The position numbers and the translations under genes are program-made. Source: a virus. From it: DNA of 64,000 nt. How positions within the stretch are numbered: the first letter of the stretch is position 1; every line of letters starts with the position of its first letter. The notes beneath the pieces are model-generated. The model was not told the DNA's origin. It saw only the letters and a program-made list of their open reading frames with translations, and ran no database searches. The DNA lies in IMG/VR virus record IMGVR_UViG_3300042291_002084, positions 1 to 64,000 of that record. One strand, given 5' to 3'. Shown piece by piece: positions 1,696 to 56,948 of this stretch.

Positions 1696-2006
1696 TCGAT
1701 ATATCCTTGATTATAAATTAATGATACATAGAATCGGATACACTTTAAATTAATAATATCTGCTCTATTAAATGTTTCCATTAAGTTGTTATCGATAATT
1801 GCTTTTACGAAACTCCCTCCATCAAAACCAATACCCCATCTGTTAGCTAAGATGCTGGTACCAATCCTAACAATATGGTCTCGGTTTTCTTCTGAATATG
1901 CGGTTAGTACAAAATCAGTGTCACGGCCTTCTACGGAGTAGCTCTCGATTCTCTTACGAACAGCTTCTTGGATTCTCTCTTCTTGTCCTTTTTCAAATGG
2001 TGTCAT
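1692..2006 (-). CDS. hypothetical protein, 104 aa
   Basis: Unrecognised soluble protein. The N-terminal 25 residues are rich in Glu, Arg and Gln and probably helical; the rest is a mixed fold. It is the first gene of a two-gene unit with 1444-1695, overlapping it by four bases. Only a partial form of the shared leader is present upstream, so it may also be read from the promoter of the gene ending at 2414. Confidence 0.7.
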   Translation of the reverse strand: MTPFEKGQEERIQEAVRKRIESYSVEGRDTDFVLTAYSEENRDHIVRIGTSILANRWGIGFDGGSFVKAIIDNNLMETFNRADIINLKCIRFYVSLIYNQGYIE

Positions 2007-2042
2007 CTCTTTAGTTTTTAAGTTAGGGTTATAATACTTTAA

Positions 2043-2414
2043 TTATCTAAACTTTTGTATAAATTCATGCTCTTTATGGAATTTAGCTACCTGACCTATC
2101 TGGTCTCTGTTGAATCCCATTGAGTGAAGAGCTCTTTCAAACGGGGTCCATGGATTTTCAATCTTTTCTTGGCCGCCGCCGCATCCAATATAGTCTCTTG
2201 TTCCCCATACTGCCGCAACTGCTTTGGCTCTACGTACCAATTTTACAGGATCCTTGATCAGCTTTGCCTGCTTCTCTGCCAAGCTCTGGATAGGAGATCC
2301 ATTACCATAAAACCAGTTTCGCATACCGCTCTTGTAGAAGTCCATTTGAGTAGCTCTTTTATAGTCCTTGTCTTGTGGCTCAATATTAACAATTACAATA
2401 TCTAATAAATTCAT
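2043..2414 (-). CDS. hypothetical protein, 123 aa
   Basis: Unrecognised basic protein (many Lys and Arg between residues 15 and 65) with a short Gly-Gly-Gly turn near residue 79. No signal peptide or membrane segment. The shared cassette leader is immediately upstream. Role unknown; by position one of the early small proteins. Confidence 0.7.
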   Translation of the reverse strand: MNLLDIVIVNIEPQDKDYKRATQMDFYKSGMRNWFYGNGSPIQSLAEKQAKLIKDPVKLVRRAKAVAAVWGTRDYIGCGGGQEKIENPWTPFERALHSMGFNRDQIGQVAKFHKEHEFIQKFR

Positions 2415-2428
2415 AGTCTTTTTGTTAT

Positions 2429-2450
2429 TAGGTTATAAGTAAATATAACC
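2429..2450 (-). promoter_or_regulatory. cassette leader/putative early promoter, copy 3
   Basis: GGTTATATTTACTTATAACC on the minus strand, a near-perfect inverted repeat, 15-35 nt upstream of the ATG at 2414. Confidence 0.55.
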
Positions 2451-2526
2451 ATTAAGTTTGAATTCTGAAAATCCTGAGGAATTATTTTTGCACAAAAGTC
2501 TAGAGACGCTTGGCCGAACCCCAAAG

Positions 2527-2546
2527 AAAAAGCGGATTACTCCGCC
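2527..2546 (-). terminator. intrinsic terminator
   Basis: Minus-strand hairpin GGCGGA-gtaa-TCCGC followed by TTTTT, just after the stop of gene 2552-2983. Confidence 0.75.
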
Positions 2547-2551
2547 TTGGT

Positions 2552-2983
2552 TTACTCATCTTCATCGTCTTCCCAGTCATCGTCATCATCGTCTTCATCC
2601 TCGTCTTGATAAAAGAAACCTTGATGCGGACATGACGTAGGGTTAGGAAGGCTCGAATATAATCTAGCAATCTTTTCTAAACTCGCTGATTCAGATAGTT
2701 CTTCAACCAGTTTTGGATACACTACTCCCGGTGAATCGTCTCCACTCACATTGTCCTTGAAACAAAGGCTTATACCCGCGCTTCGGTCTGGCTCTAGTCC
2801 GTTTAGTTCCGCAAGTAACTCATAGAAATCCTTACTTCCAAAGACTCCGTATCCTTCGTAGCTAGCCTCTCTAAAAGCTCGGCCATCAGGCGTTATCATC
2901 GCTACCTGAAAAGTATCACGATTTGAATAGCTACTAGGAATACTCTCTCCTGTATCACATGTCATCCAACTAAAAAATCCCAT
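2552..2983 (-). CDS. MGFFSW-type hypothetical protein with acidic tail, 143 aa
   Basis: The N-terminus MGFFSW followed by Thr-Cys-Asp-Thr resembles a family of uncharacterised phage proteins that I recall only by this signature. Residues 25-110 look globular. The last 20 or so residues are almost entirely Asp and Glu, which could mimic nucleic acid or bind a basic partner; that is inference. It is followed by its own terminator and sits 20 nt downstream of gene 3004-3249. Confidence 0.75.
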   Translation of the reverse strand: MGFFSWMTCDTGESIPSSYSNRDTFQVAMITPDGRAFREASYEGYGVFGSKDFYELLAELNGLEPDRSAGISLCFKDNVSGDDSPGVVYPKLVEELSESASLEKIARLYSSLPNPTSCPHQGFFYQDEDEDDDDDDWEDDEDE

Positions 2984-3003
2984 AGTTCTTCTTTTTTAAT
3001 GGT

Positions 3004-3249
3004 TTATAAATAAATCTCTCTAAGGATACTCACACTTCTCCACTCTTTTTTCTCGATGTCAAAGAATCTAACCGCTTTTTCTGACGGGTTTCCTGTGCCC
3101 TTTGGATGACTCTCTGCGGGAATCGTAGTAAGGTTGGTAGTTCCTACTGCGGTTCTTAAAGTTCCATCTACTTTTTTGAAAGCAAATTGAACTACTCCAT
3201 CTCTTAAACGAGTTCTTAATTGTTCTGGTGTTACTGGTGTTAATGTCAT
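3004..3249 (-). CDS. DUF2693-like SH3-fold protein, 81 aa
   Basis: The pattern Phe-x-Lys-x-Asp-Gly-Thr-x-Arg-x-Ala-x-Gly-Thr (residues 23-38), then Ile-Pro, Pro-Lys-Gly-x-Gly and Phe-Phe-Asp followed by Trp-Arg-Ser near the end, fits DUF2693. Members are small proteins common in Bacteroidetes phages and mobile elements and predicted to adopt a small beta-barrel. The biochemical role of the family is unknown. The shared leader is upstream and the gene runs into 2552-2983 without an obvious terminator, so the two are probably one transcript. Confidence 0.8.
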   Translation of the reverse strand: MTLTPVTPEQLRTRLRDGVVQFAFKKVDGTLRTAVGTTNLTTIPAESHPKGTGNPSEKAVRFFDIEKKEWRSVSILREIYL

Positions 3250-9800: not shown

Positions 9801-9805
9801 TTAAG

Positions 9806-9814
9806 TATAAATAA
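9806..9814 (+). promoter_or_regulatory. late promoter TATAAATAA
   Basis: Exact match to the T4 late -10 box, 16 nt before the ATG at 9830. First late promoter of the plus-strand block. Confidence 0.75.
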
Positions 9815-9829
9815 TAAAAAATTTAGATT

Positions 9830-10225
9830 ATGAAAAATAATGTAAAAAACTTTAGTCAATTCGTGAATGAAAGCGGACTGGGATATGGCTGGGCAAATCG
9901 TAAAGACCTACGTAAAGAACTAGTTGGAGGTAAAGGTCAAAAAAGAGAATATGATGAGCTTTCAGAACCAGATAGAATGGAGCTAGAAGGTCTATTTGCT
10001 AGTATTAACTTACGTGGAGAAGAAAGAGCAAAGTTAATACTTGCTAACTTTACTAATAAACTTTCAAAATTTAACACACTTGAAGAAATTAAGGCTGCAC
10101 TTGAAATTGCTCGTGAAGAGTTAGATACTAAGTTCGCGCCTGGAGATAATGAAGAGTCAAACTGGAGTGGTCGTGACTCTTCAGCAGGTGAAGAAGGATA
10201 TTATGACCAAGAAGAAGAATATTAA
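9830..10225 (+). CDS. tagged putative internal protein, 131 aa
   Basis: Begins with the tag MKNNVKNFSQFVNE followed by Ser. The tag closely resembles those of the next genes, while the bodies differ. Body: charged, helical from residue 35 to 105, with an acidic Glu/Tyr-rich tail. Transcribed from a TATAAATAA late promoter, apparently with the following three genes. Probably packaged in the capsid with cleavage after Glu14; body function unknown. Confidence 0.75.
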   Translation: MKNNVKNFSQFVNESGLGYGWANRKDLRKELVGGKGQKREYDELSEPDRMELEGLFASINLRGEERAKLILANFTNKLSKFNTLEEIKAALEIAREELDTKFAPGDNEESNWSGRDSSAGEEGYYDQEEEY

Positions 10226-10245
10226 ATAAATAAAAAATTTAGATT

Positions 10246-10626
10246 ATGAAAAACAGGGTAAAGAGATTTGGTCAATTCATCAATGAAAACATGCATGATG
10301 AAGATATGGAATTTACACCTAGACAACAGGAATATCTGGACTCATATGCAAACGATCGCCATAGCGAATATAATGAGTTAAAAGGAGAACTTGGAAGAGA
10401 ACAAGGAGCTAGACCAAAAGCAGCTATTATCTGGAACCCTGAGACAAAGGATATAGAGATAATTTTTATGTCTGATCCTACTCGCGATCAACACGGTTTC
10501 GAAGACGAAAAAGAAGCAAACCCTGAGGTTGAGATCTACTTTGTAGAATTCGATGAGACTGCGTCAATCAGAACAGTCGGTGGAGAGCTTGATCTAGAAG
10601 ACGTTAAAGTATTAGGAAGGCTGTAA
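10246..10626 (+). CDS. tagged putative internal protein, 126 aa
   Basis: Tag MKNRVKRFGQFINE followed by Asn. The body starts with an acidic stretch and a Tyr-rich helix and contains several beta-type segments (residues 60-115). An AATAAATA box and the leader AAAAATTTAGATTATG are repeated upstream, as before 9830. No known domain recognised. Confidence 0.75.
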   Translation: MKNRVKRFGQFINENMHDEDMEFTPRQQEYLDSYANDRHSEYNELKGELGREQGARPKAAIIWNPETKDIEIIFMSDPTRDQHGFEDEKEANPEVEIYFVEFDETASIRTVGGELDLEDVKVLGRL

Positions 10627-10641
10627 AAAAATATTCAAGTA

Positions 10642-11130
10642 ATGATACTAGGATTTAATGATTTTATAAATGAGGAAACTCAAGAAAATAGAAATTATCG
10701 CTGGGCTGGGATAAAAAAAGATAGAGCAGATCAATTTATGCGGCAGGCAATGAGCAACAATCGTGATTCTAGATATTTAGCAGCTAAAAGTAAATATTGT
10801 AATGAGGAAGGTTTACGTATATTAATGAATGATCGCGACCCAAGTATTCGAAGAAGAGTAGCATTGAATCCATATACCCCAGCGAGTATTTTAAAAGATA
10901 TGTTGCACGATGAAAAACTTCACCTATTAATCGCATCTAATCCTAATGCTTCACCGGAAATTCTTCGTGAACTATCAAGCTCAACTGATGATCAAGTTAT
11001 ATCTAAAATTGCTGGAAATAGAAATGCGCCAATTGACCTACTACTTAAATTGGAAAACTATCCAGATGGGGTAACTAGAGGAAATGCTAAACGTAACAAG
11101 ACGCATATTGCCTGGAGAGCTGCTCAATGA
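10642..11130 (+). CDS. tagged LRV-repeat protein, 162 aa
   Basis: Tag MILGFNDFINE, then about four helical repeats of the LRV type (Val-Ala-x-Asn-Pro-x-Thr-Pro-x-x-x-Leu) from residue 45 to 150. Recognisable units begin near Ala-Leu-Asn-Pro, Ala-Ser-Asn-Pro and Ala-Gly-Asn-Arg. LRV repeats form short right-handed solenoids that probably bind partners. The gene at 13477-13992 is a second tagged LRV protein. Sixteen bases separate it from the upstream gene, so it is in the same late operon. Confidence 0.75.
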   Translation: MILGFNDFINEETQENRNYRWAGIKKDRADQFMRQAMSNNRDSRYLAAKSKYCNEEGLRILMNDRDPSIRRRVALNPYTPASILKDMLHDEKLHLLIASNPNASPEILRELSSSTDDQVISKIAGNRNAPIDLLLKLENYPDGVTRGNAKRNKTHIAWRAAQ

Positions 11131-11164
11131 TCTATAATAAATAAATAAATAAAAAATTTAAGTT

Positions 11165-11524
11165 ATGAAAAATAATGTAAAACGATTCGGTCAATTCATC
11201 AATGAAGGATATCGAGAAGACGGGAGTCATAGTGGCTACCAAGAAATGAAAGGTCAGCGTGGAGAACCAACTAAAGGAATAGCAGTTTGGGAATTTGGTG
11301 AGGGCTTTGGAGCAGAATGGTCAACAGTTTCGTATGCTGGAAAAGAAATGGACGTTCCATTCGACGGTGACGAAGATTATGCTGACGACGGTAACTTTAC
11401 ACAAGAAGGATTTAGTAAAATCTTTAAATGTGCTGAAGAACTTGGCGCTGATCCAGAGATGGTGTATTCAGCGGAAGATGGTAAACTTATATATTCAGAC
11501 CAGGATGTAAGTCAAGGTATATAA
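11165..11524 (+). CDS. tagged putative internal protein, 119 aa
   Basis: Tag MKNNVKRFGQFINE followed by Gly, nearly the same as in 9830 and 10246. The body is acidic with aromatic residues and no recognised motif. Last gene of the first late operon, followed by a strong terminator. Confidence 0.75.
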   Translation: MKNNVKRFGQFINEGYREDGSHSGYQEMKGQRGEPTKGIAVWEFGEGFGAEWSTVSYAGKEMDVPFDGDEDYADDGNFTQEGFSKIFKCAEELGADPEMVYSAEDGKLIYSDQDVSQGI

Positions 11525-11542
11525 TTAAAACCCAAATTTATT

Positions 11543-11570
11543 AAGGGACTCTAATCGGGGTCCCTTTTTT
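11543..11570 (+). terminator. intrinsic terminator
   Basis: AGGGACT-ctaatc-GGGGTCCCT followed by six T. Confidence 0.85.
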
Positions 11571-11587
11571 ATTTTCAAGACTTTAAG

Positions 11588-11596
11588 TATAAATAA
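11588..11596 (+). promoter_or_regulatory. late promoter TATAAATAA
   Basis: Exact T4-type late box, 17 nt before the ATG at 11613. Confidence 0.75.
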
Positions 11597-11612
11597 TAAA
11601 AAGTATCCAACT

Positions 11613-12182
11613 ATGAAATACCTTACTCGCTATCCTAAACCTCTATTGGAAAATGATGATGAAGATGATAGTGATCTTCTACTTGATTTTGAAGCGTTAG
11701 GTCTCCTAAAGCCAGAACAGATGGCAGAATCCCGACGCGCCAAATTTATCCAGAGTCTAGTAGATCTATTTAGTAGAGTAGGTATTGAGTGGAGAGATAC
11801 TGCCTCAAGTCAATCCCGAAGTCGTGGTACCCAAGTTCCTCGACTAACTGAAGAGGAAGCCTATCAATTGGTTATGAGTGCCGCACCTGATATTATCCAG
11901 AGTTTAAGCCGTAATCGAGCTACGAAATTAACTCGTATCCATCAGGAGATCTCTTCATTAGGGGATTGGACTCGACCTGATAATCCCTTAACCTATTGGA
12001 TTCAACCAGCTGGGGTACGAACACAATATTATGGCAGATTCTCCCCAACTACCCCTAAGCCAACAGTCTCAAGTTTTATTAAATTTAATGGTGAACTTAC
12101 CCCAAAGGAGATGATTGCACTCTTTGTAAATCAAGTGGCTATTGACTTGTCACCTCGACTAATCCACCGATCCCAAAGGTAA
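11613..12182 (+). CDS. tagged hypothetical protein, 189 aa
   Basis: N-terminus MKYLTRYPKPLLE followed by Asn fits the tag, though it lacks the usual Phe. Next comes an Asp-rich patch (residues 15-24) and a helical, Arg-rich body with no recognised domain. It has its own late promoter. About 115 bp of noncoding sequence follow before the next promoter. Confidence 0.7.
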   Translation: MKYLTRYPKPLLENDDEDDSDLLLDFEALGLLKPEQMAESRRAKFIQSLVDLFSRVGIEWRDTASSQSRSRGTQVPRLTEEEAYQLVMSAAPDIIQSLSRNRATKLTRIHQEISSLGDWTRPDNPLTYWIQPAGVRTQYYGRFSPTTPKPTVSSFIKFNGELTPKEMIALFVNQVAIDLSPRLIHRSQR

Positions 12183-12267
12183 GGGTGACGGCCTCGCCCC
12201 CTTATAATATAGCGACTCTTCTCTGGAATCTTATCCAAACAATTTGAGGAGTCCCTCTTTAGCCAAG

Positions 12268-12276
12268 GATAAATAA
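12268..12276 (+). promoter_or_regulatory. late promoter GATAAATAA
   Basis: Late-type box 22 nt before the ATG at 12298. Confidence 0.65.
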
Positions 12277-12297
12277 CTAAAATAAATTAGCTATTTT

Positions 12298-13461
12298 ATG
12301 TTGCATATCCAGGATTATTGGCACTTTATTAGTGAACAGGAAAAGTTTAGTCTTGACCCTAAACAGCTACCCCAAAAGTCAGATCGACTAGGTAAAGGTG
12401 GAAGTTTCGAGACAAGTCTCTATGGTAACAAGACTAAAGAGGAATATTTCAAAATACTTAAAGCCAAAGACCCCAAAACAATTAAGAGGATACGTTTGAT
12501 CTTTCCTGGTAATAACTGGGAAGTGATTGCCCTAAAATTGGTTAAAACACTAGGCGTAGTTACTGGAGTATTTACCAATATTGAGACTGCTAATAGATTT
12601 ATTAATGGATTAGTAAGCAAAGGCGTAACTGCAGACGAATTAGTAATTGGTTCACATGGCCAATATGGACAATTGTTGTCACCTAAACAGGGAGACTCAT
12701 ACTATTTTGACAATAGCTTTCTTAAATCATTTAAACCACTGGTTCACAAAGGCACAAAAGTATTTTTTACTGCCTGTCATGGAGCAGATTATCTAGATTC
12801 ACTTAAGGATGCATCCGAAAAACTTGGAGTGCCGGTATATGGCTCAGCAGGTATCTATAACTATATAACCAATGCAAGTGAAAAAGGTTTCTATCTTTGT
12901 TTTCCTGCAAAATTTGAAACGGGCAAGGAAAAGTCAATTTCCGCAGTCTACTTGGATAGTGAAACAAACGGTTATCGAATTACCTGGAAAGAGGGCGACA
13001 CTCAGGGAGTAACTGGAGAAAAGGTAAGAGTAACACTAGACCCTTCTATATTTGGAATAAAACTTGCACCAATTACAATTGGAACTCAACCAATAAATAT
13101 AGAAACCGCTCGAACTTCCGAAGTTCGCGCAGCTAATTCAGTAATGAGAGTAGATGTTGACCTATTGCAAGAACTAGAAAAATCAATGTATACTGACCCA
13201 GCAATATATGCTAAATTTAAAGCTAAGCTTAATAGGATGCCAGGTAACGATAAGTGGGACAAGCAGGTAGCACTTCAAAAATCCCTAATTGATAATTTCA
13301 ACAAGGGCCTAGTTAAGATTGAAATTAGTAAAGCTTCTAATTGGGTAAATATCAAGACACTAAAGGATGTAACCTTCTATAAAGAAATAGACAATCAATA
13401 TCTTTTAAATCATGGGCTATGTAAAAGATACGATAATCCACCAGTGAGCTGGCTAGACTAA
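12298..13461 (+). CDS. tagged caspase-like (clan CD) cysteine protease, 387 aa
   Basis: Tag MLHIQDYWHFISE, then a domain with the two hallmarks of clan CD peptidases. A hydrophobic strand runs into His-Gly (Leu-Val-Ile-Gly-Ser-His120-Gly). A second strand ends in Ala-Cys-x-Gly (Val-Phe-Phe-Thr-Ala-Cys160-His-Gly). These match the His/Cys dyad of caspases, gingipains and DUF4347-type domains. After Cys160 the sequence Val-Pro-Val-Tyr-Gly-Ser resembles the next strand of that fold. Residues 200-387 are an unassigned C-terminal region. If the tag works as in T4, this protease is carried in the capsid and delivered to the host. Activity and substrate are unknown. Confidence 0.75.
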   Translation: MLHIQDYWHFISEQEKFSLDPKQLPQKSDRLGKGGSFETSLYGNKTKEEYFKILKAKDPKTIKRIRLIFPGNNWEVIALKLVKTLGVVTGVFTNIETANRFINGLVSKGVTADELVIGSHGQYGQLLSPKQGDSYYFDNSFLKSFKPLVHKGTKVFFTACHGADYLDSLKDASEKLGVPVYGSAGIYNYITNASEKGFYLCFPAKFETGKEKSISAVYLDSETNGYRITWKEGDTQGVTGEKVRVTLDPSIFGIKLAPITIGTQPINIETARTSEVRAANSVMRVDVDLLQELEKSMYTDPAIYAKFKAKLNRMPGNDKWDKQVALQKSLIDNFNKGLVKIEISKASNWVNIKTLKDVTFYKEIDNQYLLNHGLCKRYDNPPVSWLD

Positions 13462-13476
13462 AATAATAAGTGGTAA

Positions 13477-13992
13477 ATGAAATATATTAAAGGATACAGA
13501 CTATTTGAAAATAAGTTGCTTAGTGAGTGGACTCCTGAAGAGATTAGGCCTACTCAAGATATCTCAGTAGAATTATTAGCTCAACTTTCAAAAAGCGAAG
13601 ATGACACTATTAAATATGCAGTCGCACAACATCCAAATACGCCAATGAGTGTATTAGAGGAGATGTTGGATACAACTGACTCTAATTTTATCTCTATTGA
13701 ATACTATGTAGCTAAGAATCCAAACTTATCACCAGAACTTGCAGTTAGGATAAGTCAATCTACTAGTGATAGTGTACGTGCGCAAATTGCAAAAAATCCA
13801 AATCTTCCTCTAGAAAATTTTGAAGAACTTGCCCAAGATCCTGACTGGTATGTTAGGTCAGTAATTGCACTAAGCGATAGAGTGTCAGATGAGATACTTT
13901 CAAAATTAGTTAGTGATGGCAACGAGCACGTAGTAAAGAGCGCGCGTATAGTAATTGATCATCGATTCCAAAGATTACTTAGTGAATTTTAA
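13477..13992 (+). CDS. tagged LRV-repeat protein, 171 aa
   Basis: Tag MKYIKGYRLFE followed by Asn, then about four LRV repeats (residues 48-150). Units read Val-Ala-Gln-His-Pro-Asn-Thr-Pro, Val-Ala-Lys-Asn-Pro-Asn-Leu-Ser-Pro and Ile-Ala-Lys-Asn-Pro-Asn-Leu-Pro. Solenoid repeats of this kind are binding scaffolds. It directly follows the protease gene (15 bp) and could be its partner or adaptor; that is inference. Confidence 0.75.
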   Translation: MKYIKGYRLFENKLLSEWTPEEIRPTQDISVELLAQLSKSEDDTIKYAVAQHPNTPMSVLEEMLDTTDSNFISIEYYVAKNPNLSPELAVRISQSTSDSVRAQIAKNPNLPLENFEELAQDPDWYVRSVIALSDRVSDEILSKLVSDGNEHVVKSARIVIDHRFQRLLSEF

Positions 13993-34102: not shown

Positions 34103-35965
34103 ATGAGTATGCATATTATTCAAGATTTCAGTAAATGGAAAAAAATAAATGAACAGGCTTTACCTCCTAGAGAAAGAGAAAGAGGTGTTGAAAATAATAA
34201 AATAGTTGCAATTCCACTTGATGCAACATCATTAAAACTAAAAATTGTTAATGACACAGATGTAATTGATGCAAATGGTAAATTAACAAATATGACCTTC
34301 ACGTTCATTATGGACTGGCTTAAGAAACAAACAGCTATTTGGAATTATTATAAAGCTAAATTAGGTGATCTTTCAACAAATGTTGTAGTATACTCAATTG
34401 CAAAAGATAATTCAAGAAAACAGGTAATTGTATTTAACATATATTCTAAGACTGCATTAAAACAGCAGGATCCAACTAAGCCTGGAATAAATCCAGCAGT
34501 TCAATTTATTAGAGAAGATGAAATATCTTCTGCATTAGATGGAAAGATCTTAGGTTCAGGCGCACAAGTTAATCAAACACAACAAGCTGACCAAACTACG
34601 TTAAACTTACCTATTAAATCAGCTGACATTATTAATTCAACAAGTACACCTTTAATTACATTTATTAAAGATACTTATAATAAAGTTAAAGCAAAAGTTA
34701 CTGGAAATCCTATTCTTGCAACAGTTAAGTCTGAAGTAGTTGCTTCAAAACTTGGAACTGGTTCCCAAACTTTTGTTAAAGCATTAAATTCTGGCTTTGG
34801 AATACTTGATGCTACCTTTAATGAAGATACTGAAACAAATATTACACAAAGCCTAGTTGATAAATTAGTTAAACCTGAAGAATTAAATGTTGACTTATTT
34901 AATAAAGTTGCAAGCGTAACTCAACCAATTAGCGCTGGTGATATTAAAGTACCTGCTGGAGGATTTAGGGAAGGAATTCAAGGAGATCCTGAATTGAAAA
35001 AAGTACAAGATTTATTAGCTAAAAAATTAGCTCGTCATCTTAGAGACCATGCAACATACCAAGCATTTGTAAAAGCTGGTAAAAATGGGTTTGTTGGTAA
35101 TTATGGACCATTGACTCATAATTTAGTTGTACTATTAAAAAGTATTGCTGAAAATCCACCATATCCAAATAAAGATGGTTCGATAATTGAACAAGATTTT
35201 GTACAAATGATTCAAGAAATAAATGAATCTTTCTATATTGGATTAGACGGGTCTACTCTAATTACTGAATCTACTTTTAATTTCAGTAATGCTGAAGCAA
35301 TTCAACCAAGTGCACCAGCTGCAACTCAAGACAAGAGTACGCCAGCTAAAAAAAAAATTAAATCTTCTACAAGTCCAACGTCAACTAAGCCAGAAGGTCT
35401 AGATGTTAAAGCATTTCAAAAATGGATGGTAGCTTCTGGAAAAGATGGATGGTCTAACTCCGATATTGATAATATTTGGGGACCTAAAACGTCTACTGCC
35501 TGGAATAAATGGAGTGATGAGTGGTCTCAATATACTATTCCATTAGAAGGAGAGGATACTGATAAAGTAGATGTAGCAGATCAACCAAGCAAAGATGCAG
35601 TTGATAAAATGTTTGATAGTTTAGTACAAAACATTGAGAAGTATGTTGAGAATTCTATGAATTTTGAAAAATACTTTAATTCGGCTGATGCTTGGAATAA
35701 AGGAATTGCTCAAGAGTGGAAAAACGCATGGTATCCAGAGTATACAAAAATTAAAAAAGTGGTTGCCTCACTTGACCAAAATGATAGTGATACTAGTAGA
35801 TATACCACAAATTTAAGTAGAATATTAAAAATGTTTAAAGGATATAAATTTATGAATACTTGGAATGGTCATACTGACGATGATAGTTTTTACATAAACA
35901 TATTATATCATGCAACTAGGGCAGGTGGAAACTATCGTGCATATAAAATAACTTGCGATTTTTAA
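34103..35965 (+). CDS. tagged multidomain protein with peptidoglycan-binding-like region, 620 aa
   Basis: Tag of 17 residues ending Phe-Ser-Lys-Trp-Lys-Lys-Ile-Asn-Glu, followed by Gln. Residues 20-150 are alpha/beta and residues 150-400 mainly helical. Residues 432-475 resemble a small peptidoglycan-binding unit (Val-Lys-Ala-Phe-Gln-Lys-Trp, then Ile-Trp-Gly-Pro-Lys-Thr-Ser-Thr-Ala-Trp). The C-terminal 120 residues are helical and Trp-rich. A second candidate cleavage site (Leu-Ile-Thr-Glu-Ser) lies near residue 393. First of three consecutive tagged genes almost without spacers, so one operon. Confidence 0.7.
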   Translation: MSMHIIQDFSKWKKINEQALPPRERERGVENNKIVAIPLDATSLKLKIVNDTDVIDANGKLTNMTFTFIMDWLKKQTAIWNYYKAKLGDLSTNVVVYSIAKDNSRKQVIVFNIYSKTALKQQDPTKPGINPAVQFIREDEISSALDGKILGSGAQVNQTQQADQTTLNLPIKSADIINSTSTPLITFIKDTYNKVKAKVTGNPILATVKSEVVASKLGTGSQTFVKALNSGFGILDATFNEDTETNITQSLVDKLVKPEELNVDLFNKVASVTQPISAGDIKVPAGGFREGIQGDPELKKVQDLLAKKLARHLRDHATYQAFVKAGKNGFVGNYGPLTHNLVVLLKSIAENPPYPNKDGSIIEQDFVQMIQEINESFYIGLDGSTLITESTFNFSNAEAIQPSAPAATQDKSTPAKKKIKSSTSPTSTKPEGLDVKAFQKWMVASGKDGWSNSDIDNIWGPKTSTAWNKWSDEWSQYTIPLEGEDTDKVDVADQPSKDAVDKMFDSLVQNIEKYVENSMNFEKYFNSADAWNKGIAQEWKNAWYPEYTKIKKVVASLDQNDSDTSRYTTNLSRILKMFKGYKFMNTWNGHTDDDSFYINILYHATRAGGNYRAYKITCDF

Positions 35966-55000: not shown

Positions 55001-56419
55001 TTAAGCAATAGTAAAGTTTTTTTCTATTGTTTCAGCTTTTGCAATCTCATTACTTGGAGCAGATGAACCGCCAGCATTAACCCTAACACAGGCTTCAATA
55101 GCAGACTTTTTATTAGTAAATGAATTAGGATCAATATTTAGATTCTTTAATCCGTTTATTATAAATGCAGCAGCTACTCGAGCAGAAAATTTAGGGTCAT
55201 TTAATTTATCAGGATCAGTAACAATATCAATTCCAGTTAAATCTGAATATCTTTGGTAATTTGATTTAAATGTTAATTGATTAAAACCTCTACCTCGATA
55301 TTTATAACCATCGCCTACTTTAGTATTACCAGTATTCCAACCTAAATTGTCAGTTGCAGTCGGACCATATACCTTATCGAAAAATGCAGATGGGCTAGAT
55401 TTAAGTTTAGTTAAAGCATCATCAGATAAGTCACTCACTCTAGATCCAAATAGACCTCGAATTCGCGCATTTGGGGTAGTTGCATAACTTAATTCGTTTT
55501 GTGGAATAAAATTACTCTCTTTTCCAATAGTTGATAATATCCCAATAATAGCATACTTATTAGTTACACCAAGAGATTTAATTTGACTAATTAGGGTATT
55601 AATATTTTGAGCTTGGGTACCAGTATAATTGGATTTTATTTCTTTATCTTCTAGTGCATCATCAATAAGTTCATCCGAATCTTCACTAGATAGGTCAGAC
55701 GTACCTACTTGATTTCCAGAATCGTCTAATCCAAATTTATCTTTAAACCATATAAAATGTTCTGGATGTTCAGCAAAGATATTATCTAATTCTTCTGGAG
55801 TAAGAGTAGGAGCCATATCTGGCATCATTCTAAAAAGCCAATCTAAGATTACTTGATTATTTAATATTCTTTCCCCTCGGGTTTTTCCTGGAGAGCTTTG
55901 ATATTCATCTTTTAAATCATTTGAATCATCTGAATCGCGACCAACTCGACGTACACCTATATGAATATGATCAAAGTGATCGGGTACTCGCCATCCAACT
56001 TGATATCGATATCCGCCAGAATTGAAATTAAACCATGAACCTCCTTTATATTCTGGATGACCACACCATTGCATTAAATGCGCAAGTAGAGTATCTCCAC
56101 TCTTTCCACTAGTTGCAATATCAATAGCATATGAATCATCTTGACCTTCATAGTGATCTGAGGTATTTCCGCTTGCAGTTTTTTCCTTAGATCTCTTTTG
56201 AGAAATAATAGTATTTTTTCCAACAAAATCATTAGCAATTTTAGCAAAAGCTAATGCTCTAGGCATACTTCCATCCCAGTCTCCACCCTTTCCGCCAACA
56301 TTTGCTTTACCGCTATCTAATGAGCCAACGGTTAATCCAAATGTTTTATCTGGATAGTTTGCATCAGGATCAAATGAAAATGTCTCGTTAAGTTTAACCC
56401 AATCTTTAAAAGTAATCAT
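55001..56419 (-). CDS. tagged bifunctional peptidoglycan hydrolase (M15-like peptidase plus GH19-like lysozyme), 472 aa
   Basis: Tag MITFKDWVKLNE followed by Thr. Residues 50-160 form an M15/LAS-type metallopeptidase: Ser-Asp-His89-Tyr-Glu-Gly and Asp100-Ile, then Asp-His-Phe-Asp-His151-Ile-His153-Ile-Gly supply the zinc ligands. Residues 265-470 resemble GH19 chitinase/lysozyme (Gly-Lys-Glu-Ser-Asn-Phe with candidate Glu; Tyr-Arg-Gly-Arg-Gly-Phe-Asn-Gln-Leu-Thr). The linker is acidic. Together they cut both peptide and glycan parts of the wall. The tag suggests it travels in the virion and acts at entry, though a lysis role is also possible. Confidence 0.82.
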   Translation of the reverse strand: MITFKDWVKLNETFSFDPDANYPDKTFGLTVGSLDSGKANVGGKGGDWDGSMPRALAFAKIANDFVGKNTIISQKRSKEKTASGNTSDHYEGQDDSYAIDIATSGKSGDTLLAHLMQWCGHPEYKGGSWFNFNSGGYRYQVGWRVPDHFDHIHIGVRRVGRDSDDSNDLKDEYQSSPGKTRGERILNNQVILDWLFRMMPDMAPTLTPEELDNIFAEHPEHFIWFKDKFGLDDSGNQVGTSDLSSEDSDELIDDALEDKEIKSNYTGTQAQNINTLISQIKSLGVTNKYAIIGILSTIGKESNFIPQNELSYATTPNARIRGLFGSRVSDLSDDALTKLKSSPSAFFDKVYGPTATDNLGWNTGNTKVGDGYKYRGRGFNQLTFKSNYQRYSDLTGIDIVTDPDKLNDPKFSARVAAAFIINGLKNLNIDPNSFTNKKSAIEACVRVNAGGSSAPSNEIAKAETIEKNFTIA

Positions 56420-56453: not shown

Positions 56454-56948
56454 TTATTTAGTTAAATGACGATCAATTATAATCAATTGACTTGTACTTA
56501 TTTTAGGATAAGCATCGTCTGCTGAAAGGAATCCAGCCCAATCAACTTCCTCCTCCTGTAGAGTAGATTTAGGTAATCTCTCACTATCTAATCCTATTTC
56601 AGAAAGATCTTCTATATTACATACAAAATAAATTAAGCGACCATCCGGTTTACCGTTCTTATAGAATATTACTTGGTGAGATTCTGGATCAAGTTGATCT
56701 TGTGAAAGAACAATAGAGGTCTCTTCTTCAAGTTCTCTAAGTGCAGCTAAGATTGGCTCCTCATCAGGACGATCCAATTTTCCTTTAGGAATACCTAAAG
56801 TTGGTTTTCTCCAAGAAGCATTTGTTGGGTGAACTAATAATATTTTATTATTCCAAATAATTGCAACACCTGCTGCTACTCTGTGTTCTTCTGGCATATC
56901 AATTGCCCATCGTTCATTAACGAACTCATTAAAATTTAATATTCCCAT
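56454..56948 (-). CDS. tagged Nudix hydrolase, 164 aa
   Basis: Tag MGILNFNEFVNE followed by Arg. Residues 55-79 form the Nudix box: Gly-Lys-Leu-Asp-Arg-Pro-Asp-Glu-Glu, then Arg71-Glu-Leu-Glu-Glu-Glu-Thr-Ser-Ile, with one extra residue in the first loop. It hydrolyses nucleoside diphosphates linked to another group (for example NAD, ADP-ribose, caps or dNTP derivatives). Being tagged, it may be injected to remodel host nucleotides or RNA caps at once. Substrate unknown. Confidence 0.85.
   Translation of the reverse strand: MGILNFNEFVNERWAIDMPEEHRVAAGVAIIWNNKILLVHPTNASWRKPTLGIPKGKLDRPDEEPILAALRELEEETSIVLSQDQLDPESHQVIFYKNGKPDGRLIYFVCNIEDLSEIGLDSERLPKSTLQEEEVDWAGFLSADDAYPKISTSQLIIIDRHLTK

Follow-up and report, generated by a model that had tools for sequence, protein, structure and literature searches.

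A capsid-tagged protein family with a caspase-like core in uncultivated phages: a candidate protease delivered at infection

To our knowledge, few of the proteins that phages inject into their hosts have known activities. In phage T4, an N-terminal leader sends the internal proteins into the capsid, from where they are injected together with the DNA; Ip1, Ip2 and Ip3 have only this leader in common and inhibit restriction enzymes of the host once they are injected (PMC12373910; PMC3012670), in the case of Ip1 apparently by binding to them (PMC3012670). The stretch of DNA analyzed here (the window, i.e., the first 64,000 nucleotides of the 70,167-base virus record IMGVR_UViG_3300042291_002084) encodes a protein that opens with a leader of this type and continues with a core in which a His and a Cys residue are placed in an order known from caspases (Table 1). 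This raises the question whether the phage carries a caspase-like protease in its head and releases it into the host, and which role the protein might play there. A search of the open-access literature in PMC at the level of titles and abstracts found no description of a phage-delivered caspase-like protease, and the word caspase is absent from a 2026 review of jumbo phages.

The protein and its relatives

For the core of the window protein, no family match with a meaningful E-value was obtained in Pfam, PHROG, NCBIfam or PADLOC, and queries with the whole protein returned zero relatives. By use of the core as query, of alignments and of degenerate DNA patterns for the His and Cys motifs, 14 further distinct relatives were recovered, all of them on uncultivated viral contigs of 7 to 430 kb. 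The GenBank phage collection and plasmids contained no convincing relative, and in 84,980 prokaryote genomes none was found at the sensitivity of the degenerate His/Cys pattern scan. As judged from these comparisons, the window protein and its relatives constitute a new family with 15 or more distinct members.

Table 1. Features of the tagged caspase-like protein and its gene in the window, with the evidence for each.
Feature	Coordinates	Strand	Evidence
Tagged caspase-like protein, 387 aa	12298..13461	+	ORF; family of 15 distinct proteins; dN/dS
Putative capsid-targeting tag MLHIQDYWHFISE, residues 1-13, predicted cut after Glu13	12298..12336	+	T4 ipII/ipIII layout; tag enrichment in the window; cleavage inferred
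Protease-like core, conserved, residues 63-209	12484..12924	+	Alignments A3 and A5; AlphaFold model
GSHG motif, residues 118-121, with His120 as predicted catalytic His	12649..12660	+	G118, H120 and G121 15/15 in alignment; predicted strand directly before
FTAC-x-GA motif, residues 157-163, with Cys160 as predicted nucleophile	12766..12786	+	15/15 in alignment; predicted strand just before
Cys201, second invariant Cys	12898..12900	+	15/15 in alignment
Variable insert, beta-rich then helical, about residues 213-360, between core and C-terminal tail	12934..13377	+	Predicted strands and helices
C-terminal tail, conserved, residues 365-387 (ending NQYLLNHGLCKRYDNPPVSWLD), includes Cys375	13390..13458	+	Retained in compact relatives

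In the 15-row alignment (A5) the relatives are 25-41% identical to the window protein, and the invariant positions include G118, H120, G121, F157, T158, A159, C160, G162, A163 and C201. H120 is the sole invariant His and C160 and C201 are the sole invariant Cys residues; Ser119 is replaced by Ala in one of the 15 members, and the column of Cys375 is at least 90% conserved. The dN/dS values among three of the relatives (L107, L108 and L109) amount to approximately 0.14-0.25, showing that the protease-like gene is under purifying selection. The insert comprises about 150 residues in the window protein, whereas compact relatives, e.g., L107 and L092, lack it. The shortest relative, L107 with 217 aa, is limited to the tag, the core and a short tail at the C-terminus that includes the conserved Cys, thus core and tail form the minimal unit. 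The relatives L108 and L109 carry a zinc-ribbon-like CxxC...CxxC module between the tag and the protease core, which in L109 matches DUF5817 (E 0.0055). In two of the 15 members, L092 and L058, the place of the tag is taken by an untagged domain of about 170 residues at the N-terminus; these two domains resemble each other, and so do the genes upstream.

The conservation bears on the question whether the protein is an enzyme at all. A caspase-like fold might be injected in an inactive form and act as a binding protein or inhibitor, e.g., as a decoy directed at a caspase or CHAT system of the host, and the inhibition of restriction enzymes by T4 Ip1-3 (PMC12373910), apparently via binding in the case of Ip1 (PMC3012670), would be a precedent for this. 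However, His120 and Cys160 are invariant in 15 proteins, some of which share no more than about 25% identity with the window protein, and pseudo-enzymes usually lose such residues, making an inactive binder improbable.

Order of the candidate catalytic residues, predicted fold and similarity to caspases

Both the alignment and the structural model place the His before the Cys, in H-G and A-C-x-G motifs that each follow a predicted core strand. In the window protein, His120 is found in the context LVIGSHG and Cys160 in the context KVFFTACHG. Animal caspases (C14A, clan CD) likewise have His-Gly and then Ala-Cys-x-Gly, each just past a core strand, and the spacing between His and Cys is similar with 40 residues in the window protein and 43 in caspase-8. 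The AlphaFold model calculated from the 15 sequences has a mean pLDDT of 78.3 and a pTM of 0.65, with the core blocks mostly at pLDDT 70-92 and the lowest value of 55 around residues 124-133; a single-sequence model (pLDDT 40) was too poor for use. In the numbering of the model, which is the residue number of the window protein minus 13, the core is composed of strand 51-56, helix 60-71, helix 82-94, strand 99-106, helix 126-135, strand 136-144, helix 153-163 and strand 167-170, with a short extended stretch near residues 77-78. The His directly follows strand 99-106 and the Cys is located three residues past strand 136-144. The strands and helices of the model thus succeed one another as in the clan CD fold.

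A fold search with the model yielded no match at E <= 0.001. Among the PDB matches listed, CED-3 had the top probability (0.63, E 0.09) with dehydrogenases close behind, and the viral fold matches listed included an unnamed protein (0.92) and, as the most probable of the named ones, a Tupanvirus clostripain (0.77, E 0.08). The alignments with caspase-like folds among the matches listed were poor, with a TM of at most 0.35.

In profile comparisons, a profile of caspases 1, 7, 8 and 9 aligned with the family in such a way that both the His and the Cys residues coincided; the match had E 0.028 and a probability of 1.8%, and one of 200 column-shuffled decoys scored as high. The fragments of caspases 1, 8 and 9 in this profile agree letter for letter with the PDB. 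A caspase set that included earlier database hits reached a probability of 59%; this set is biased since its members were picked as prior hits. A match of a two-sequence profile to the caspase structure 6wi4 (E 7e-4) was absent with a seven-sequence profile and reappeared at 0.12 with an eleven-sequence profile, and for this reason it was not relied on. Pfam C14 (PF00656) did not match any family member, and a profile of bacterial C14 proteins built from 12 plasmid-borne members gave no match (probability 0.2%, equalled by 21 of 60 shuffled decoys). The family thus shares with bacterial C14 caspase-family proteins the broad class defined by motif order, whereas profile comparison does not connect them. 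For DUF4347 (PF14252), which has SHG followed by C and in the profile alignment has both His and Cys in register, the probability was 0.8% and the score was equalled by 5 of 60 shuffled decoys, so that the family is not placed there; DUF4347 also differs in being part of large bacterial repeat proteins. In Pfam, DUF4347 was matched weakly by a single family member (E 0.18).

Taken for themselves, the sequence comparisons make a similarity of the family to caspases suggestive and do not prove it. Both candidate catalytic residues are in register with those of animal caspases, but the similarity is too weak for membership, and the window protein differs from caspases by having a capsid tag and no recognizable p10 subunit. 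It is moderately likely that the family works like a clan CD peptidase; the comparisons do not establish that it belongs to the C14 caspases proper. The order of His and Cys might also occur in an enzyme with a different fold or chemistry, e.g., a hydrolase of Rossmann-like type whose substrates are small molecules or the cell wall. In favor of this, dehydrogenase folds score alongside CED-3, and one member of the alignment has a weak PG_binding_1 match (E 0.042; the whole L009 protein has none at E 0.1). Against this stand the position of His and Cys just past core strands, their alignment with the caspase residues in the profile comparison and the finding that amidase, NlpC/P60 and YkuD families give no match, and we give such an enzyme little credence.

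These results sort the reading of the first-pass annotation, which had proposed a caspase-like protease on the basis of the clan CD order of strand-His-Gly (His120) and strand-Ala-Cys-x-Gly (Cys160). This order was borne out by the invariance in 15 of 15 proteins and by the predicted strands. The term caspase-like holds as far as the motif order and the predicted strand-helix core of the model are concerned, and it does not extend to the caspase family proper. The comparison of a predicted structure with caspase folds, suggested by the same annotation, returned the strand order of clan CD, with CED-3 as the most probable of the PDB matches listed but short of significance, and a profile comparison with DUF4347 stayed at the level of decoys.

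The capsid tag and the head-assembly genes

The tag of the window protein reads MLHIQDYWHFISE and is followed by Q, and the leader of T4 ipII and ipIII, read from NC_000866, is MKTYQEFIAE followed by A. Like T4 ipI, ipII and ipIII, the window protein starts with a tag of about 10-13 residues that closes with Phe-Ile-x-Glu; by this comparison its leader resembles that of T4-type capsid-targeted internal proteins. As for the internal proteins of T4-type phages, varied bodies are found behind one kind of leader. The T4 proteins Ip1-3 are inhibitors of restriction enzymes, whereas in the window protein a conserved His/Cys pair lies within a protease-like core.

A tag-type motif is present within the first 25 residues of 19 of the 86 ORFs of the window compared to 3.8 expected (p = 5e-9), as tested for non-overlapping ATG ORFs against internal segments of the same proteins with a single regular expression that was picked after the ORFs had been seen. 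The capsid tag claimed by the first-pass annotation for this ORF is thereby confirmed, both by this enrichment and by the match to the ipII/ipIII leader. With a broader tag expression, enrichment was clear in the L007 and L005 contigs and not clear in the 430-kb phage (p = 0.11) and the 298-kb phage (p = 0.35). The genes of the window at 9830-13992, including the protease gene, open with similar tags, e.g., MKNNVKRFGQFINE, MKNRVKRFGQFINE and MILGFNDFINE. Ahead of the genes that start at 9830, 10246 and 11165 lies a very similar A/T-rich sequence (AATAAATAAATAAAAAATTTA and close variants; window 9805-11164).

Within the family, a tag or a tag-like N-terminus is found in 13 of 15 members, and the tags vary from phage to phage: the tag of the relative L002 ends in GLINE followed by QNKF, that of the window protein in FISE followed by QEKF. 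In the contigs L006, L113, L007 and L109 the tag of the protease is common to neighboring genes. In L006 MNLQEQITRIKEMMGVINE is found beside MNLQEQISRIKSMMGVVNE, in L113 the common tag is MKKLIITENEKFHIKKLYNLITE, and in L007 and L109 several nearby genes start with MIKLKDIL or MIKLKNLL. In the window, L008 and L111 the sharing of the protease tag with neighbors is little or nothing over background; the L008 phage has clear T4-like tags elsewhere in the contig, e.g., MENLKSFGEFINE.

Several further tagged products were observed. In L028, the gene at 1705-3210 (-) adjoins a protease relative and its tag closely resembles that of the relative (MKKLIITENEKFHIKKLYNLITE); its product contains an HEIQH motif, matches SprT-like proteins weakly (E 0.07) and is possibly a second tagged protease. 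In the window, a tag-like start MGILNFNEFVNE precedes a NUDIX domain (56454-56948, -; E 2.7e-11), possibly an injected nucleotide hydrolase. The tag nearest to the protease tag within the window, MSMHIIQDFSKWKKINEQ, starts a product at 34103-35965 (+) that weakly matches an endolysin family (phrog_2649, E 3.7e-5), and a GH19-type endolysin at 55001-56419 (-) has the tag-like start MITFKDWVKLNE and relatives in three protease-carrying loci. Two tagged LRV-repeat proteins of the window (10642-11130, + and 13477-13992, +; Pfam LRV E 9e-7 and 1e-10) share sequence similarity (E about 1e-13) and might be injected binding proteins. The idea that the tagged LRV protein serves as adaptor of the protease is not supported, because LRV genes are confined to the window among the loci compared; no adjoining gene is conserved together with the protease gene.

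A gp21-type (S77) prohead protease and a T4-type gp23 are both encoded in 8 of the 14 records searched, and neither was found in the 70-kb record of the window or in the other five. The record of the window is a fragment, and the other five may be fragments as well. In six of the eight records (L123-L128) the N-terminal region of gp23 reads FLINE or HLINE followed by A, an order that matches tag ends such as GLINE or NIINE followed by Q; the capsid proteins of L109 (a 76-kb phage) and L008 (a 430-kb phage) have N-termini that differ from this type. Both the INE site of gp23 and the end of the tag are putative cleavage sites. The earlier proposal that the protein is carried in the head and released at infection agrees with this indirectly: the T4-type tag, the presence of gp21 and gp23 in eight related records and the INE site in the gp23 propeptide all point to head packaging and injection.

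A head-packaged cysteine peptidase might also act inside the capsid, maturing or clearing scaffold and internal proteins instead of working after injection. The head proteins would be the first proteins that a packaged protease meets, and proteolysis is known to mature phage heads (PMC5694885). However, a head-maturation role is made less likely because a gp21-type protease is already encoded, together with gp23, in eight of these records, and the lack of conserved adjoining genes is unlike what is seen for a morphogenesis gene. The known prohead proteases of T4, SPN3US and phiKZ are moreover serine proteases of a different fold. We therefore assign a low probability to a function within the capsid.

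Proposed role and implications

We consider it fairly probable that the window protein is a clan-CD-like cysteine peptidase that is carried as an internal head protein, is injected and cuts one or a few proteins of the host. Fourteen relatives from other large phages, mostly T4-like, retain the same two predicted catalytic residues, in most cases behind different tags, which makes it probable that an enzyme that cuts proteins enters the cell with the DNA of these phages. Several observations run against this reading: the fold search yielded no match at E <= 0.001 and poor caspase-like alignments, with dehydrogenases scoring close to CED-3; bacterial C14 caspases did not match and DUF4347 did so at decoy level; the best caspase score came from the biased set; two of the 15 members (L092 and L058) are untagged; and gp21 and gp23 are missing from the record of the window.

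Of the chain of events proposed here, the observations cover the tag, the motif with its invariance and the predicted core. By analogy to T4, the N-terminal tag would direct the protein into the prohead, where a gp21-type prohead protease might trim it after FISE. The mature enzyme, residues 14-387, would stay with the packaged DNA and be injected alongside it, as the T4 internal proteins are. At the onset of infection His120 would activate Cys160 for the cleavage of a peptide bond in one or a few host proteins, a catalysis to which the motif and its invariance point. The likeliest purpose, in analogy to T4 Ip1, Ip2 and Ip3, would be to disable a defence or regulatory protein of the host before new phage proteins appear, and the variable insert may, speculatively, set the choice of substrate. 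That the targets are immune proteins of the host, perhaps caspase, CHAT or gasdermin components of its defence, we regard as rather unlikely.

If the proposed role applies, a cysteine protease delivered by the virion would act catalytically ahead of any phage gene expression, and phages as well as bacteria would use caspase-like proteases in the conflict between phage and host. If host immune proteins were cut, the same protease fold would be turned by phage and host against each other. Moreover, the capsid tag allows the proteins that uncultured T4-like phages would inject to be catalogued by sequence alone.
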